Made by a program: the position numbers and the translations under genes | The notes under the pieces: model-generated | The model's database searches: none | What the model was told of the DNA's origin: nothing | Seen by the model: only the letters and a program-made list of their open reading frames with translations | Source of the DNA: Thermothelomyces thermophilus ATCC 42464 | Taxonomy: Eukaryota; Ascomycota; Sordariomycetes; Sordariales; Chaetomiaceae | Direction of reading: 5' to 3' | DNA: 64,000 nucleotides | Assembly: GCF_000226095.1 (NCBI RefSeq) | Contig: NC_016472.1 | Span: 4,402,001 to 4,466,000, forward strand | Shown: piece by piece, positions 21,535 through 38,775 of the stretch | How the letters are laid out: every line of letters begins with the position of its first letter | How positions within the stretch are numbered: position 1 is the stretch's first letter

Positions 21535-24500
21535 ATGATTGAGAACAAGCCTCGGGGCCGCCCACGGGATGGCGGTACTATAGGGGTTGGGAGCAACTGC
21601 GCCGCCAGCAGCCCGGAGGCGGCGCCAATGTCTGTCGACAAGCCGGATGCGGCGGGCCATTTGCCCATCGGTGAACATGGGGCAACAGACGGCCCGACTG
21701 CGCTTGGAAGAAAGCGCAAGTCGCCCGATGACGACGCGAGTCCAGGCAGTGGGAAGACGTCAGGTTTCCGCTCGGAGCATGTCGAGAAGAAGATAAAGCT
21801 GGCCGATGTCCACGCAGAGCAGTCTTCCCGATTATGGCCCGTAGCCAGCAGCCCCCTGAGCCGAGACAGGTCTCTCTTGCCCCCGGAGATCTGGCACCAT
21901 GTCTTCACCTTTTGCCCGCCCAAGACGCTTGGCAATCTTCTTGCTGTCAACAAGCTCTTCAACTTCTACCTTGATCCCTCGTCATCGTTTAAAAAAGAGC
22001 CGCATCCCTCTGCATCGTTAGGCGCACTCGGCCGTCTGGAGCCCAATGCCATCTGGCAAGCGTCGCGAAGACTGTTCTGGCCACAGTTGCCGGCCCCCCT
22101 ACGGTCAAAAACCGAGCTTGAGATGTGGCGGCTTGCATGTTCCCCTAGGTGCCAAGTTTGTGGCAAGCTTCCCGCTCAAGGCTCGGCTTCCCGTAACCCT
22201 CGCAGTCCTGGTCCCTGTGCCGACGGCGTGGCCGCCATCTGGGCCTTTGGCATTCGCACGTGCGCAGCCTGTCTCCTGAAAGGCTCGGAAAAGGTGCGTA
22301 AAGAACCTGTCCGATGACGGAGGAGTGAGGACAATCGTCATCTAATGGCATGCTAGGAGGTTGACCTGGAGATATCGCCCTCCATCCCCTCGGCGATTGT
22401 CCCTGCGCTCCCCTTCGTTTTCCTCACGCAAGAGCGCAGTGTTTTGTCGCCGACTACGCTCGAGTCCAGTCAGCCACCGGGAGATATGCAGCTCACAAAA
22501 CTGTTTTCAAAGGCAGACGTCGAAGCCCTATTGAAGGAATTCCTGCAAGTCAAAGACATGGGCCAAGGAACCGTTGCCGAATGGCTCAAGGGTCTCCCGG
22601 GAAGAGGCGCCAGCTTACAGCACGAGGCAACGAAATGGGAGAAGTGGGAACTGTCCGGAGGTGTCGTGAGGATGTGCTCGCTGCTGTATCCGGGGTACGA
22701 ATCAAAGACCACAAGCCGGTCTTCCCTGAAGTCATCGATCAATCCCGCCATTACCTCGACGTCAGCGCACGGTCGCCACGAACGAACCGCCGAGGAAGCT
22801 GCAGAGCTCAAGGCGGCCAGGAGGGCAGAGATCGAGCGACGATGTTTGCTTCTATCCCCGCCGCTAACCGCCGACGTCCTCCGCCACATCCCCTCATTTC
22901 AAGCCGCCACTCAGATCGTTGCCGACTTGACTGATGACGCATGGGAGCGTCTTAAACCGCGATTGCTAGCTCAGCGAGCAGAAGCAGAAAAAAACCTGGA
23001 GGCTGAGCGCGTAGCCGGGCTCAAGGACGGGCAGCAGACCCGGGAACAATCGAAGCTCCAGGCCACGCTGGCGGCGGATAAGGAGGCTCGAGACCGGGTC
23101 GACAAGGAGTGGGAGGACGTGCAAGCTCCACTGCGTGTGAAAATCGCCGGCTATGCAGACGAAGTCTTGCGCGAGAAATGGGGAAAGGGCAAGAAGGTGA
23201 CCAGAGAGAACTGCTCAAGGTTTGCGGTCGACTCGCTCTTATATGTCCGGGAGCGATTCTACGCCGACATCGCCAAGGACGTGGCGGAGGCGAAGGCTGC
23301 CGGGAAGACACCTACTCCCGACCCTCCCAATGGACCTTTCACGCAGAAATTGACGCTGGAAAACATGAAGTGGATCTTTGACACGAAGTTCAAACCCCAC
23401 ACCGAGCCTCTACGCAAAGAGCTGTTCTATTGTAACGGATGCGAGGGGAACTACAAGGCATTCGGCTTTGAGGGCGTCATACAACACTATGCGGCAAAGC
23501 ATACCAGTGCCCTCAGTCTGGGGAGCATTGTTGTGTACTGGAGGGCCGAATGGCCAGAGCATCCGCCGTTCTGCGCAGCACCCCGGTCAGCAAAACCTGC
23601 CTCAACCCGGCACACCCCAGGCGGCTTCGCCGTCAACGGAGGCGTCCCTCCCCCGGTCCAGTACGGTTACGCTCCATCGGCAGCCGTCCCAATGGCACCA
23701 CCCCCCCCTTATCCGCCTCCCATGGGTTACGGATACACTCCCCCACCGTACAACGTTCACTACCCGCAACCGCCGCCGCCGCCGCCTCCTTATCAGCCAC
23801 CACCTACGGCTCCTCCTCCATTTGTACCACCGCCCGACTACGAGCCAGCACCATCGCCTTATATACCCCCGCCCGCGCCCTATTCGGCGTTTCAGCCTCC
23901 GGCTATCACGTATACTACTCCGGTTGCTGAGCCAGTTTCTCCAGGTTTCGTACCTACTCAAGGCGGACAGTACGGTTACCTGCATGAACCGTATCCAGCA
24001 CATAACGCAGCAACCCAGTACACTTCGCACCAGCCCTCGCCTTACCCCAGTCTCTATCAAACCAAAGTGGATGACATTGCCCGCAATGCTCGCGACGTAT
24101 GGCGAACGTTGGGCGATATCCGAGATCTCCCTGGGGACATAAGGGTGTTCACGACCATCCACCATTTGGTGAAGAGATTCCAGTCTCGATTCTACGAAAC
24201 CCCGCCGCTATCCATGTTTATCGATGCTCTCTCTAACAACAGAGAGATGCGTCCGGTCCGCAATGTCAATGGCCTGGCTTGCCGGGCTTGCCGCCTAGGG
24301 CTCGGCAATGCAGCTTCGGCGGAGGAGGGTCGGAAAGAATTCTCGCTACCCCAGCTGTCGAACCACTTCCAATCCAAGCACATTGAGCCACTGCAGAGGT
24401 CACAGGCGGGAGGCGGAACCCTGAATTGGGTGACCGACATGGTCCTAGTATCCGATCTTGCCGCTCTCCCAGGCATCATCTCCTCGGCTAACGAGCCCCA

Positions 24501-25908
24501 GAAAGCCCTGATCTCGGCCGCATTCCCCGCCGCATTCGAAACGCGGCATGTCGCCGCCACTGGAAAGTCCTATTCTCCGCAAACCCGTCAGCACAAGGAG
24601 GTTCTTCTGAAGAAGACTCCCACCGATGCACCGGATACCTGCGATGGATCTCAGGCAGACAGCGGCGTCATCTGTCGTTCCAGTATTCCAGGGTCTATGA
24701 AAGCTACCACTCCCGCCGATCGCCGTTCCTCCGGCAAGTCACCTCACAGCACAATGCCGAGTGCTCCTCCAGAGGACGACCGGTCAGCGCACAGTGGTGT
24801 TGGTCGGCAATTTTCGCATAGCTCTGGACATAATCTCGGGCCGAGCAGGTTCGACGATCGGAAGAGGACGAGTAGCAAGTCGAAACGCGGAGAATCACAG
24901 GGCAGGTCATTCTCTAGCGACCGGGAGCCCGAGATGGCGTACCGGGAGGATGAAGAGACAAAGAAGCCCAAAGACGAAGATGGGCACACTGTGCGTCCTG
25001 CCGGCCGAGCCAGCACCCCTCCACCAGGCTTGAACTCCACAAGGCCCGAGAAACCAGGGATGGATGTTGGGCTTCAGGATCAGAGATGGCTTGAGCAGGA
25101 AACAAGGGCGTCGCGGCGACCCGATGACAGATACCCGCCCCCTTCATCGAACGAAAGGGGAAAGCCCAGCATCACGGCAGCGCTAGACTCATACCTTGAA
25201 AGAATCCAGTCGCCGCAGGCACAAACACAATATGGGACACCGGATGCTGCACTGTACAGGGACTACCGTGGTTCGGAAGAGGATCGAAACCCTCGGCCAG
25301 GTCCGAGGGCGCATGATCGATATGGTCGCAGGGATGTTGGGACGAGATCTCCGCCACCCGCTGGCAGATTTAGAAGTGCTAATGAGGGACAGGCTGGCCC
25401 CTTGTATAGAGGCCGGCCGGTGGCGGTTGAGGAGAGGCAAGAGGACGCGTACAGCCCTCGACGAGCTGAACCGAGCTTCGTCGAACCATTACCGCGCCAT
25501 GCCGAAGCAGAGCGTTTCGCCTTGCCGGCTCATCCGCCCAATGAACACATCCGGGATAGGGCGGCTCCAGAAGTCGATCATCACCGGTACCGCGAGGATG
25601 TGCGCATGCATCCAAGAGCGGCGGTTGAGACATACGAAATCGTGCATGTCATTGACGAACACGGTGAGTATTACATTCGGCGGCCGGCCCGACGCGACCC
25701 AGATCCGCGATACGTGTACGAGGAGCGAAGGGTCCGCCACGGCCCCGATCACTATCCTCCTCCTCCTCCTCCTCGTGAGCCAGTCTACGTTCCTACGCAC
25801 CGGCCGAGCTTGGCCCGGTTCAGTGCGGCGCCAAGTATTCGACCGGGTGACCAGCGGGTTGACCCGGCGTACTGGGAGGAATATGACCCCCGATTCCCAG
25901 CTGGTTGA
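21535..25908 (+). CDS. Large F-box-like protein with Cys/His zinc-binding clusters and proline-rich linker
   Basis: Two exons, 21535-22293 and 22357-25908, 1436 aa. The N-terminus MIENKPRGRPRDGG holds an AT-hook-like GRP core, followed by a lysine-rich stretch. An F-box-like motif spans ~105-140 (LLPPEIWHHVFTFCPP). A Cys cluster (CQVCGK ... RTCAACL) follows at ~205-248. Two further CxxC...HxxxxH clusters lie near residues 612 (CNGCEGNYKAFGFEGVIQHYAAKH region) and 896 (CRACRLG ... LSNHFQSKH). Residues ~680-820 are proline/tyrosine-rich. The last third is a charged, Arg/Ser/Pro-rich disordered tail. F-box proteins usually recruit substrates to SCF ubiquitin ligases. This architecture is familiar from uncharacterised fungal proteins and suggests a nuclear regulator, but no function is established. 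The intron (GTGCGT ... CTAATGGCATGCTAG) joins GSEK to EVDLEI. Confidence 0.8.
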
Positions 25909-27379: not shown

Positions 27380-28176
27380 ATGCGTGCTCAGACTCTGTCG
27401 GGCCCCCTCCTCCTCCTCCTCTTCGGCAGCCTCGCCAGTGCCTGCCCCTTGGCCGCGAGGCAATCCGCCACGGAAGTAGCCAGCGCTTCCGACCCCGGCC
27501 CGACGGATTCCGGAACGACGGGCGACGGGCCCAAGGCCGACATGGTCGCTATCATCAAAACTGTCTTGCCGACGTCGGACTCGTGCGCGGGCGCCGAGTT
27601 CCCGGACGAGTGCAGGACCGCCGAGCAGGCGGCGCCCTACGTCTCCAAGGCGTGCGCCGACCTGAGCGACGGCGAGTGCGCCGCCACCCTTGCCGTGATG
27701 GGCTACGAGAGCGCCGACTTCAAATACAAGCACAACCTCGGCAACAATCCGGGTCAGGGCACCGCAAACATGATGAGCCCCGAAGTGAGCTTCTTCTTTC
27801 CCGTGTTCCCTATTTCTGGCCTGCTGTTTTATATATATATACATATATATATGTATATTTTTTTTCGTGCACGCGGAAAAAGCTAATCCGTACTTCTTTC
27901 TTGCAGAACGTCCTTGCCTATGCCACGGACCTCTTTGGTGCGGACAAGGTCGCCGGCAAGACGCCCAACGAGGTCCTCGCCATGGTTACGCCCGACGAGA
28001 CCAACTTTGGCTCGGCGGCCTGGCACCTGAAAACCAAGTGCCCTAGCCTACGGGATGCTCTCAAGACCGGTACCGACGCCGCCTGGGAGAGCTACATGAA
28101 TGAATGCATCATGGGCGACAAGAATCCCAAGCGGCTGGAGTACTGGAATAGGGCTAAAAATGCGTTCGGTCTTTGA
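27380..28176 (+). CDS. Small secreted protein of unknown function
   Basis: Two exons, 27380-27784 and 27907-28176, 224 aa. A clear signal peptide (MRAQTLSGPLLLLLFGSLASA) is followed by CPLAARQ, whose AAR could mark a further processing step, and a Ser/Thr/Gly-rich spacer to ~residue 50. The mature part contains about six Cys residues (SCAGAEF, DECRT, KACAD, GECAA, TKCPS, NECIM), enough for three disulfides, plus GQGTANMMSPENVLAYA. I recognise this as a type of conserved small fungal secreted protein but cannot name a family or activity. An extracellular or effector-like role is only a guess. The 122-bp intron contains a TA-rich dinucleotide tract. It lies convergent to a secreted amylase; no shared function is shown. 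Confidence 0.8.
27829..27871. repeat. TA dinucleotide tract inside an intron
   Basis: Alternating TA/TATACATATATATGTATA followed by a T run lies within the single intron of the secreted-protein gene, upstream of its TTGCAG acceptor. The T run may serve as polypyrimidine tract. Confidence 0.8.
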
Positions 28177-32376: not shown

Positions 32377-35258
32377 TCAGCTCGACCCCGTCAAATCCAA
32401 GCCATATGGAAATTGAGCACCATCCTGTGGCGCTTGTTGCTGCGAGAACTCGGGGTTTCCAGGAAAGAATTGCAGGGACTCGCCGCCCCAATTTACGCTC
32501 TGAGTAAAGTTCTCAAACGATTCCTGAACATAGCGAGTTAGCTGGAGGAGCAGAAACAGCGAGAATCAGGGAAGGCGGATCCATTCCAGGAACTACCTAC
32601 CCAATCGAAATTGGTCGAAAAATCCAGGTTATTATTCGCCATGTTATCAAACATGGTCAGTGGTGAATGCGCGCTGTCAAAGCCGAGCATGGGGTTGGAG
32701 AAGTTTGTTGGGGCGGCACTTCCCATCCCCATACTTGTGCTCGGGCCGTTTTCAGCCCCCCCGCCCGCATTCGCTCCGTTCAGGCCCAAGTTAAGGTCTC
32801 CGTACGATTTGTTCACGGAGGACTGAGCCCCGCTGAATGTGTTTGCCAGTCCTGGCCCCGACCCACCGGAAAGCATGCCTCGCGTCGTGGCCTCGAGCTG
32901 CCCCGGTAGCAGGTCACCCGAGTCGCCAGTCCTAAGCGGCCCCGAGCTGGATGATAACCCCATCGGGCTCGCAGGCCCGTCCGCACCTCCAAGGCGTTTG
33001 ATTTTGTTGAGCATGATATCAAGGATATTGGACGCTTTAAACGCGTCGACTGAGGTATCGGACAATTCCTTCCAGATATCCCTCGTCAGCTCGAGCCTGT
33101 CGATCATTTCCTGGCGCTGCTCTCTGGACCAGAAGTACAAGCTTTGGGCGTCCTGCTGTCCCGCCGGCCCCTGGCCCGCGTTGTCAAAGTGCAGATCAAG
33201 TACGATGACCATGGCGGGGAGGAGGAAGTCCTTCGTCGCAACTGATGTGAAGAACCACTTGACTGGATGGAGAAGCCCGCCGGGCTGCGATTCCCGGTGG
33301 AGCGTCGCCAAAATTCGCAGAGTCTCTAACGACGCTTCGATGGCACTCCGACGCGAGTGGGCATATCGGGGGTTGTGCCTCGCTCGTGGCATGTACTTCC
33401 TGTGGAGCAGGCACATGATTTTGAGGTAGAGAATTTCTAGGTGGAACCTGGCCATGATCAACGTCAGCGGAGCGTCGCAGCCTTCGAGCGGCTGCATCCG
33501 TAGGTGAGGCGGAAGTCCAGCCTTGAAGTCGCGCAACTTGGCATCGAATCGGAGAATCTCGTCATAATGGACCGGGCTCTTGACCCGGCCCGTAGCCTGC
33601 AGGATGGTGCCGAGCAGATCACACAGTTTGACCTTCTGGACCATATAGCTGACAGGTGTGGGCTCAGTGTTAGGTCTCGAAGGCGGGAGCACTTTCGTAT
33701 CCGGACCGAACTCTTCGTCGTAAATGTTGTGGGGTAGCTCGGTGTCGCAGTCGTGCTCGGATATCATGCTCGGGAGCGATACCTGATGCGAGAGAATGAT
33801 ATCCATCATTCTCACCAAAGCCCAGGTCCTGCGTCTCATCTCCTGCGTGAATAGTGAGAAAACAAGCCTCAACAGATAGAACCTCAGAGGAGACATGGAT
33901 TGTGGGACTTTGAGCCATGGGATGAACATACCGCTTCAAAGGGTGTGAGGGTGGAAAACCACTTGCCGTCACGGTGATAGCCCATCCGTAGGGCGACCCG
34001 TACCACCATAGCACTGATGATCCACAAGCTCAAGTCGGCATCCCATCGAGAGGAATACTCGCAGAAACCATACAGCATCATGGCCTCCACCGTATGCTGT
34101 GTCGGTTTGGTATAGTCCCCCGCGACCAAACACTGAACCGTCCTTAACCGATACTCATCTGCCAGCTCAAGCGCCCGGCCCTTCCACTCAGGGGGCTCAT
34201 CTCCAACCTTGTGGTAACTTATCAGAGCCAGGCACATGACCGCATACAGCAACGCCAACCACATGATTGACGTCTTTGATGGATCTTGCCAGTGGTCTCG
34301 AAGCTGTTGCCAAAACGTTGGAGCGTGGAGGATGTTGACAGCGTTATCCATCGAGCTAAAGTACCTCGAGCATAACGCTATGATCTTCGACTTGGGTGGC
34401 AACTCTGCCCGGAGTTCGACCTCGGTTGCCGGTGTGGCACCCATTAGCAGGGTGGGCGGCTGCTTGGCTGTCGGGGGTTTTGCCAGCTTGATTCTCTCGT
34501 AGCTGGTCTCTAGATCCTTTTTATGGCTCGCGAAATAGTTCTTGACCTCGGCTATGTCAAGCAGAATGGTGTGCCAGTGTTCCTCCCCGAGATACACGTG
34601 CTTTGACCGAGCCGGATCCATCTTCAAGACTCCTAAGGATTTCGCAAGTCCGTCGTCAACATCGCTTTCATCGTCCCCCTGCACTTCGCCGTCATCATCG
34701 TGGCCTTCGGCTTTGGCTCGTAAGGAGCTGCTGTCCGCAGTAGAAGGCGAGCCGTTTGAGGCAGCGCCGCCAGACGATGTGGAAGAGCCACCAGGCAACG
34801 ATGATGCGTCGATGTTGGCACCCCCGTGCATCAAGGAGAGGACTAATCCCTCCAGCCGGTTGATGCGGTTCTGCATATCATCAGGAGTCGGTTCCCCTTG
34901 GCCCTGGTTCTTCCTGCGGGATACGGGGGTGGCATATGAGCACGAGAGGGTGCCGGCTCCCTCGCGCTTAGTGCAGTTGCCACATGGGTGTGACCTGTCG
35001 CACTTCCTGGGCCCCAAGTTAGTCTTATGGTATTAATGTCCGACACAATCCTGATCCAACTGCTTACAATCTGGACATATGGTTAGCTGGCTCAACAATG
35101 ACTGGCGGCGCGGAAACATGCTTAAAAACAGCTCACTTTCTTGTTCGACAAGGGTAACAGCTGAGAGGTACTCTGTTCCTCTTGCGCACCACCCGGAACT
35201 GCTCTTCGGGTGACCGGCTGGTGGTCAAGGCCGTGGCTGAGGGCGGTGTGGGCGTCAT
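32377..35258 (-). CDS. Zn2Cys6 fungal-specific transcription factor
   Basis: Five exons: 35258-35137, 35070-35068 (3 nt), 35006-33932, 33842-32601 and 32523-32377, 862 aa. The zinc cluster at residues 34-62 reads CYPCRTRKLKCDRSHPCGNC then TKREGAGTLSC, the canonical C-x2-C-x6-C-x5-C-x2-C-x9-C. A probable coiled coil follows (MQNRINRLEGLVLSLM). The middle homology (Fungal_trans) domain includes RMGYHRDGKWFSTLTPFEAEMRRRTWALV, split by intron 33843-33931. The C-terminal 150 residues are Gly/Ser/Asn-rich with FDNMANNNLDFSTNFDW, possibly an activation region. It should bind CGG-type DNA sites in the nucleus. Its target is unknown; it lies directly upstream of and in the same direction as the amylase gene, but does not look like AmyR to me. 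The 3-nt exon rests on the x6 spacing and two good introns. Confidence 0.9.
35068..35070 (-). other. 3-nt internal microexon of the Zn2Cys6 gene
   Basis: ATT lies between an acceptor (ATGTCCAG) and a donor (GTAAGC). The introns on either side, 66 and 61 bp, have branch sites GCTAACC and GACTAACT. Splicing as AA|ATT|G gives Lys-Leu and the canonical six residues between Cys2 and Cys3. Skipping it leaves five. Confidence 0.75.
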
Positions 35259-36766: not shown

Positions 36767-37611
36767 TCAAGATGCCGCAACGGAGCCATCGCCATTTGCC
36801 TTGACACTGTACGGCTTCAAGAAGTCGGGGTTGCTTTCCAGTTCCTCTTTGACCTGTCCAGATGTTAGTACACTCATGGATAGGGCCCAACCGGTCAAGG
36901 GGGGTTGAAACGCACAATGTCAAGGCCGCCAACCAATTCACCATTCACCCATAGCTGCGGGTACGTCGGCCAGTCGGCGAACTCCTTCAGCCCTTGCCGC
37001 ACCTCATCGTCGGCCAGAATGTTGAAGAAGCCGTACTTGACAGCATTGTCGCGCAGGATCCCCACCATTTGTCGCGAGAAGCCACACTTCGGTTCACTAG
37101 GGGTCCCCTTCATGAATAGCATTACGGGCGCCGCCTTGACCAGTTCACCGAGACGCTTGAAAAGCTCTTGTTTCTTCTTTTCCGGATCCTCCTCCGTTGT
37201 GACCTCTGCCTCGTTGTTCGCGGCCGACGTGGCCGAGCCGTTGTGGGCCGCCGTCGCTGCCCCCGTCTTGCTTGCGTGACTCTCGATGGCGTTCCGGACC
37301 TTGACGGCGCTGCTGCCGCTAACCGTCTCAAGCACCTCTCCATTCCGAATGAGAACGAGAAACGGAACGGCTGTCACGTTGTAGGCCTCGCTTATATCAG
37401 ACAACTCCTCTGCATTGATCTTTACCCACGACGTCGACGGCGGCTCGGTAAGGGGGTATTCACTGGCCAAGGTCGAAAGCACAGTGGCCATCTGGGCACA
37501 CGGTGCCGCCCATGGCGCGTGAAATGAAACGATCAACAGCGTGGATGGCGGCAACGAGGATACATGTTTCTCCCAGGCCTCCACGCTGGTAATTTCCTCG
37601 ATTTTGGACAT
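36767..37611 (-). CDS. GRX4: Monothiol CGFS glutaredoxin with N-terminal thioredoxin-like domain (Grx3/Grx4)
   Basis: Two exons, 37611-36916 and 36853-36767, 260 aa. Residues 1-115 form a thioredoxin-like domain whose active site reads WAAPC (34-38), with one Cys only, as in Grx3/4. A charged Ala/Glu-rich linker (~120-150) follows. The glutaredoxin domain holds PVMLFMKGTPSEPKCGFS (CGFS at 176-179), WPTYPQLWVNGELVGGLDI and, after the 62-bp intron (GTGCGT...GGACAG), VKEELESNPDFLKPY. In fungi these proteins bind a bridging 2Fe-2S cluster with glutathione and act in cytosolic/nuclear iron sensing and cluster trafficking with BolA proteins. The start MSKIEEITSVEAW is the family start. The frame stays open for 73 codons upstream without an ATG. 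Confidence 0.94.
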
Positions 37612-38775
37612 GGCCGAAGGTTCGGTAAGGGGAGAGCGGACCGGAGCGGACCAGAACGACGAAAGCGGCTGGGAACGCGGGATTGGGTTCGCTATGGCAA
37701 ATGACTGTCCTGCTGGTGTTGAGTATGCCGTAGAACTGAGCGGTACGTTTCTTCTGATGAGCTGTCGGATGCTTTCTCTCGCGATAGTTAACGATTTCTC
37801 TCTGTTCGAGTGACCACGCCACTGGTTCAATGCGTTGCCCCACCGTCAACTTTGCCAGCCGATTGCGGATTTAGTCCTGGAAGGCTGATGACCCCGCATC
37901 CTCCAGACACAATCCGCCATTGGCCGAAGACGCGTTGCGTCATTTGATGGCCTCGTCCACACATCTTTCGCGCACCTTGAAGAGTACGGATTTCTACTTG
38001 ACGGCGATAGCATAACAAGGCAAATCTCTGAAAAGAACCTTGATTACTCATCCTCCCATCTTGGACCATAGTATTGTATTTCTCAACTTCCGACTAAACC
38101 GAGGTGTTTCCCATTTTACTTCTAGAAGGAGGTGCACGCCTCTGTCCCAATGAACTTGAAGACTTCACTGCCAGAACAGTAATCACACATTCTCGCATCT
38201 ACAATAGATCCGAATGTTACTTCGTGTCATAATGTATCGCAGTCGACTCGCTGAAAGGGACGCGACGTGCATGTGAAACGCCAACTTGACTGGCGGACTG
38301 GCCCAATTGTGGAGCACTCACTGTTTCAGCTAGGCAAGGGCTTCTTGCTCCAGGTACACATCCCAGGCCACGTTGCCACTTGTTCCAGGCTCTCCCAGCG
38401 CCCAAGTTTGTGACTTGATGGGTCGGTACGTGCGTAGTGCACTCCATGTCCGTTGGATGCGCTGGCGGGTGCGCTGTAATTCGTATTCCGTTCAGTGGTA
38501 ATTACATTAGGTATATATAGCTCTATACGGAATAGTCTCAGTGAGGAGGCTTGCGACGCTCTATGCCCGACTTAAATCCTGGCAGATCTGCGAACAGCTC
38601 AATTTCTCTGCGTGGCCAAGACCTTGGCATTCAACGTCGTCCAATTCACTACTCCAGCGACACCAGACGACCTATAACGAGGACCCATACGGAGGTACCT
38701 TCCAAGCATACACCGCACGCCGAAGAGCTTTGATATTGCACAGAGCCCGAACCTTTCTAAACTGTCGGCTCAGCA
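37612..38775. promoter_or_regulatory. Divergent promoter region between Grx3/4 (-) and the CYSTM gene (+)
   Basis: About 1.2 kb. TATATATAG at 38512-38520 suits the plus-strand gene starting at 38776 if its leader is long. No other gene is seen. Confidence 0.45.

Follow-up and report, generated by a model that had tools for sequence, protein, structure and literature searches.

Regulators carrying a Zn2Cys6 cluster make up the most abundant class of fungal transcription factors, and the loss of the DNA-binding domain through annotation has been described at scale (PMC10141177). In Xlr2, a Fungal_trans regulator of the filamentous fungus Trichoderma virens, a tiny internal exon lies within the Zn2Cys6 cluster; this 20-nt exon, which encodes PCRRCE with two cysteines, is described as missed by annotation, required for the DNA-binding domain, supported by RNA-seq and dependent on glucose (PMC11121469). 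Likewise, the zinc-cluster region of the Fungal_trans protein I1CF81 of Rhizopus delemar is reported to be mispredicted automatically, manual gene prediction having placed there an exon coding for two amino acids (PMC10141177). For ACE3, an intron is implied between the second and third cysteines, and no tiny exon appears among the places listed (12 of 20) (PMC7412840). Micro-exon 8 of the Drosophila transcription factor gene homothorax is a 3-bp internal exon, generated when a 48-bp exon is spliced at an alternative 5′ site; it lies between domains and is documented by RT-PCR, RNA-seq and genetics (PMC7392893). At the sub-codon scale, the plant genes APC11 and VPS55 are reported to contain 1-nt microexons outside any zinc cluster that were missed in annotation and confirmed by RNA-seq and RT-PCR (PMC8831610). 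Among fungi, exons down to 6 bp are reported in Phanerochaete P450 genes (PMC1184071), and exon II of rtnA from the filamentous ascomycete Aspergillus niger, a 15-nt exon between short intervening sequences, adjoins a stwintron and is skipped at times, as demonstrated by cDNA (PMC6616335). Word searches of the open-access literature returned no 3-nt nuclear exon of any fungus among the matches listed, a negative result that is weak because of the open-access scope and the word-based searching.

Here we describe a gene within a 64,000-nt stretch of the Thermothelomyces thermophilus ATCC 42464 genome (NC_016472.1, positions 4,402,001 to 4,466,000; hereafter the window) that is predicted to contain an internal exon consisting of ATT only, located within a Zn2Cys6 cluster. 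Unlike the Xlr2 exon, this candidate exon is 3 nt long, contains no cysteine, could be skipped in frame and is predicted from the sequence. It is probably an extreme case of the known microexons; since very short exons have already been described, it is a striking example and not a new phenomenon. If RNA evidence bears it out, a fungus would have a 3-nt exon inside the motif that defines the commonest class of fungal transcription factors.

A four-intron gene model with a predicted 3-nt exon

The gene lies on the minus strand, and a model with four introns yields a regulator in which a Zn2Cys6 cluster and a Fungal_trans domain are combined, its length being about 862 residues. As judged from the sequence and its translation, coding exon 1 (35137..35258, −) extends from an ATG at 35258 to AGA AA, two bases into the codon for Lys41; it encodes residues 1–40, among them the zinc-cluster cysteines Cys34 and Cys37. 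Intron 1 (35071..35136, −; 66 nt) has the donor GTGAGC, a branch-like CTAAC and the acceptor TCCAG, its 3′ end reading CTAACCATATGTCCAG. The predicted internal microexon ATT (35068..35070, −; 3 nt) would complete Lys41 and begin Leu42. It is followed by intron 2 (35007..35067, −; 61 nt), whose donor is GTAAGC and whose branch-like CTAAC precedes the acceptor CCCAG, the intron ending in CTAACTTGGGGCCCAG. Exon 3 (33932..35006, −) starts with GAAGTGCGAC at 35006 and contains cysteines 44, 50, 53 and 64 as well as the first part of the Fungal_trans domain (PF04082). Intron 3 (33843..33931, −; 89 nt; GTATGT...CGCAG) precedes exon 4 (32601..33842, −), which codes for the remainder of Fungal_trans and the C-terminal region. 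Intron 4 (32524..32600, −; 77 nt) offers two in-frame acceptors, 32524 and 32542, at a distance of 18 nt; use of 32542 instead of 32524 adds LTRYVQ, resulting in 868 versus 862 residues.

An earlier note on this DNA had proposed two complete GT-AG introns of 66 and 61 nt, each with a branch site and separated by ATT alone, and our analysis reproduced their coordinates, lengths and frames. Both introns match GTRAG / CTRAC / YAG, and the distance from the branch-like CTAAC to the acceptor is the same in the two. With consensus-matching sites on both sides, the predicted 3-nt exon would count as a microexon (internal, at most about 30 nt) if those sites are functional. The description of ATT as one codon's worth of bases holds for its length and its net effect of one residue, but not for its position, as ATT spans two codons: its A completes Lys41 (AA|A) and its TT opens Leu42 (TT|G). 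With ATT, the codons read AGA AAA TTG AAG TGC (R K L K C); without it, they read AGA AAG AAG TGC (R K K C), so that the frame is kept and only Leu42 is lost. Retention of intron 1 places a TGA right after Lys41 (41 residues), and retention of intron 2 alone places a TAA right after Leu42 (42 residues).

Downstream of the cluster, Pfam detected Fungal_trans (PF04082) on two open reading frames with 35 and 26 bits (cut-off 23), an arrangement found in the CeGAL family (Zn2C6 plus Fungal_trans). The two pieces flank intron 3 and adjoin in the profile (positions 2–145 and 145–229), thereby supporting the overall gene model.

ATT restores the spacing of the zinc cluster

Inclusion of ATT gives the spacing C34-x2-C37-x6-C44-x5-C50-x2-C53, whereas its omission leaves C-x2-C-x5-C in the first half. 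The motif quoted in PMC10141177 has a C-x2-C-x6-C first half and a C-x5-16-C-x2-C middle, both of which are present with ATT. Pfam aligned Zn_clus (PF00172) to residues 33–72 of this product with 33.3 bits, well over the gathering cut-off of 21. No Pfam family was reported at E≤1 for the N-terminus encoded without ATT, matches above about 0.1 being mostly filtered. The earlier proposal that C-x2-C-x6-C depends on ATT and that skipping yields C-x2-C-x5-C was borne out, with no Zn_clus match reported at E≤1 when ATT is left out.

In a comparison with solved structures, 20 distinct sequences matched at E≤1 with ATT, the best relative being the DNA-binding domain of yeast HAP1/CYP1 (PDB 1hwt, 37.2 bits), which has the common x6 spacing and a valine in place of Leu42. 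Without ATT, only 11 matched at E≤1, 2 of which are ribosomal S14 proteins; Gal4, Leu3, Lac9, Ppr1 and RSC3/RSC30 dropped out, and HAP1, at 31 bits, was retained with its valine facing a gap of one residue. Because the similarity to HAP1 persists at this level, a protein lacking Leu42 would still be recognisable as a HAP1-like cluster, and the loss is clear but not total. Leu42 presumably corresponds to Leu19 of Gal4. This Gal4 residue is said to interact with DNA (PMC5983003).

The second half of the cluster (34940–34984, −) has the spacing C53-x10-C64, which exceeds the x6-8 given for this loop in PMC10141177, although Pfam still aligns through it above the cut-off. Inspection by eye of the C53-x10-C64 loop spotted no intron. 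The cluster is therefore not textbook throughout, which takes a little force from any argument that assumes canonical spacing in every part, even though what ATT restores is the x6 position. A pattern scan of the window found no uninterrupted zinc cluster; it returned three first halves (+29095, +46700 and −35159) and one second half (−35005), and the two halves occur close together only in the microexon gene.

Only one consensus splice model gives the x6 spacing with the exon-1 cysteines

We enumerated all single introns with GT/GC-AG ends whose length was 35 nt or more, taking donors starting at 35190 and acceptors as far as the Cys44 codon TGC, and scored the products with a zinc-cluster pattern allowing a last loop of 6–12 residues (the actual loop is 10). 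The 186 combinations included six open ones and none that gave C-x2-C-x6-C, and the sole open single intron that keeps CYPC, 35136–35007, produces x5. Two-intron models amounted to 2410 combinations, 237 of them open; 13 gave x6, one gave x5 and 27 gave other spacings. Eleven of the 13 x6 models take the first two cysteines from intron sequence (CPDC). The other two use the CYPC of exon 1, one with the exon ATT and one with the exon CCA, and only the ATT model is GT-AG throughout. The CCA model was rejected for its GC donor, GCTAAC, which coincides with the intron 1 branch sequence; its first intron would be 46 nt long. A different acceptor supplying the leucine, which the earlier note had named as one outcome that would count against the exon, was found in none of the 186 single introns, ATT being the only fully GT-AG two-intron solution that uses CYPC. 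When any dinucleotides were allowed at the ends of single spans (donors 35150–35121, acceptors from 35030 to exon 3), 16 spans gave x6; the only one with an AG acceptor has a donor beginning with AGCTGT. An origin of introns 1 and 2 by duplication was discarded, their alignment being no better than that of shuffled sequences (306 of 1000 at least as good).

Chance expectation of the splice-site arrangement

To gauge how often such an arrangement arises by chance, the 130-nt stretch was shuffled 20,000 times with dinucleotide composition preserved, keeping its first 6 and last 18 nt. The strict and loose splice patterns were defined post hoc, the site being already known. The strict arrangement of branch, acceptor, 3 nt and donor was seen in 0 of the 20,000 shuffles and the loose one in 70, while the strict arrangement with an exon of any length from 1 to 15 nt was seen in 12. 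When all of the window is considered, the microexon site is the single strict match, whereas 100 shuffles contained 0.14 on average and never more than 1; the loose pattern occurs four times compared to 2.3. With 0.14 strict occurrences expected per shuffled window, the pattern itself could have arisen by chance alone, and stronger evidence than its rarity comes from the restoration by ATT of an independent protein motif. Given the post hoc patterns and this expectation, the argument rests on the conjunction of sites, frame, motif and Pfam score.

Intron lengths and RNA structure in the window

A crude intron finder returned two candidates in a first run. At thresholds 2, 4 and 6 it gave 12, 1 and 1 candidates, compared to 2, 0 and 0 in a reversed-sequence control, and at thresholds 0 and 1 it gave 27 and 20 compared to 7 and 3. 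At threshold 1 (control, three candidates), candidate lengths ranged from 52 to 156 nt, 5 of the 20 being at least 122 nt; only intron 4 was recovered out of the four introns of the microexon gene, and one candidate (+34092–34165) lies antisense within exon 3. Because the finder misses three of the four modelled introns and makes an antisense call, it supports a rough length range only. Its top candidate was 27785–27906 (+), a 122-nt GTGAGC...TTGCAG between coding-like stretches. RNA folding revealed no exceptional structure (z 0.15), 104 of 200 shuffled sequences folding as well or better.

Inclusion, retention or skipping of the predicted exon

ATT is probably a real 3-nt exon between two back-to-back introns, each recognised as a unit, and the usual mRNA probably includes it. 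Each short intron would be defined by its own donor, branch and acceptor, and the usual mature mRNA would then carry ATT and encode CYPCRTRKLKCD, the standard-spaced first half of the cluster. The earlier note had considered the exon too short for exon definition; this probably does not apply here, since ascomycete introns are described as short, with splice sites that pair across the intron (PMC6616335). Such intron-wise pairing suggests that a length of 3 nt is no barrier and makes constitutive inclusion of ATT the likeliest outcome, which is also what pairing of the nearest sites would favour. Splicing factors are unlikely to bind simultaneously to two sites that flank only 3 nt, so the introns are most likely excised one after another. 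Skipping would occur if the donor of intron 1 paired with the farther acceptor, removing 130 nt. We rate constitutive inclusion first, control of dosage by retention second and regulated skipping third; as retention and skipping are both compatible with a real exon, their likelihoods do not exclude the main explanation.

Retention bears on dosage because an immediate in-frame stop follows when either intron is kept, so that splicing efficiency could set the dose: incomplete removal of intron 1 or 2 would halt translation, and the level of the regulator would be set by splicing efficiency or transcript decay. In-frame stops are generally expected within introns, and those found here need not be regulatory; we regard such control as rather unlikely. 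Sugar-dependent retention of intron 1 has been described for Xlr2 in T. reesei (PMC11121469), and retention is reported for the A. nidulans Zn2Cys6 gene AN1569. The amount of DNA-binding protein would fall upon skipping or, with higher probability, upon retention. A regulated switch, in which conditions shift the balance between inclusion of ATT (active) and the 130-nt skip (Fungal_trans intact, zinc cluster broken, possibly a competitor or cofactor), seems unlikely. It would fit with skipping being in frame, with the silence of Pfam on Zn_clus without ATT, and with published examples: the glucose-dependent use of the zinc-cluster microexon in Trichoderma Xlr2 (PMC11121469) and the skipping of the 15-nt exon in A. 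niger rtnA (PMC6616335). However, the two introns each have a full set of splice elements, pairing between nearest sites would work towards inclusion, and the RNA structure is unremarkable. Unlikelier still would be a one-residue toggle, with inclusion giving an active regulator and skipping giving a protein one residue shorter that retains all its other domains but lacks a proper cluster; the same gene would then also encode an antagonist of its own product or a decoy that senses a ligand.

Removal of a single 130-nt intron would be the simplest gene model; it is in frame, its length falls within that of the candidate introns of the window, and the HAP1-like similarity survives the loss of Leu42. 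The product would be a regulator with an unusual C-x2-C-x5-C cluster or with no DNA binding. We consider this model very improbable, as Pfam reports no Zn_clus match for its product at E≤1 and it leaves unexplained a consensus branch, acceptor, 3 nt and donor inside the intron, an arrangement absent from all of the strict shuffles. Stwintrons are reported in Pezizomycotina (PMC6616335); in such a reading, the 130 nt would form a nested intron that is spliced out by two reactions and contains no exon. The list of single spans argues that a nested intron with the same outer sites would give the skipped x5 product; no exon would remain in a stwintron, and none of the 186 GT/GC-AG single spans gives the x6 product, the one AG-acceptor span that does having the AGCTGT donor mentioned above. 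This reading is therefore exceedingly improbable, and inclusion of ATT as an exon remains the preferred explanation.

Implications for annotation and neighbouring genes

A gene finder that misses ATT would deliver an in-frame model with a cluster one residue short and unreported by Pfam, and such proteins could consequently be filed as lacking a DNA-binding domain. The cysteine-spacing test, in which a two-intron model restores the motif and no one-intron model does, could be applied genome-wide. The locus would, moreover, offer a small natural experiment on how a spliceosome deals with an acceptor and a donor separated by 3 nt. We also looked for relatives in non-fungal collections: 8 and 5 pattern matches in viral contigs and 22 in genome contigs were not confirmed, and distant blastn found no match among plasmids.

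The upstream neighbour on the same strand (36895–37845, −) codes for a protein with thioredoxin and glutaredoxin domains according to Pfam, perhaps a monothiol glutaredoxin. Elsewhere in the window, an open reading frame of 1183 codons (22357–25908, +) contains DUF7892 (Pfam, 178.5 bits).
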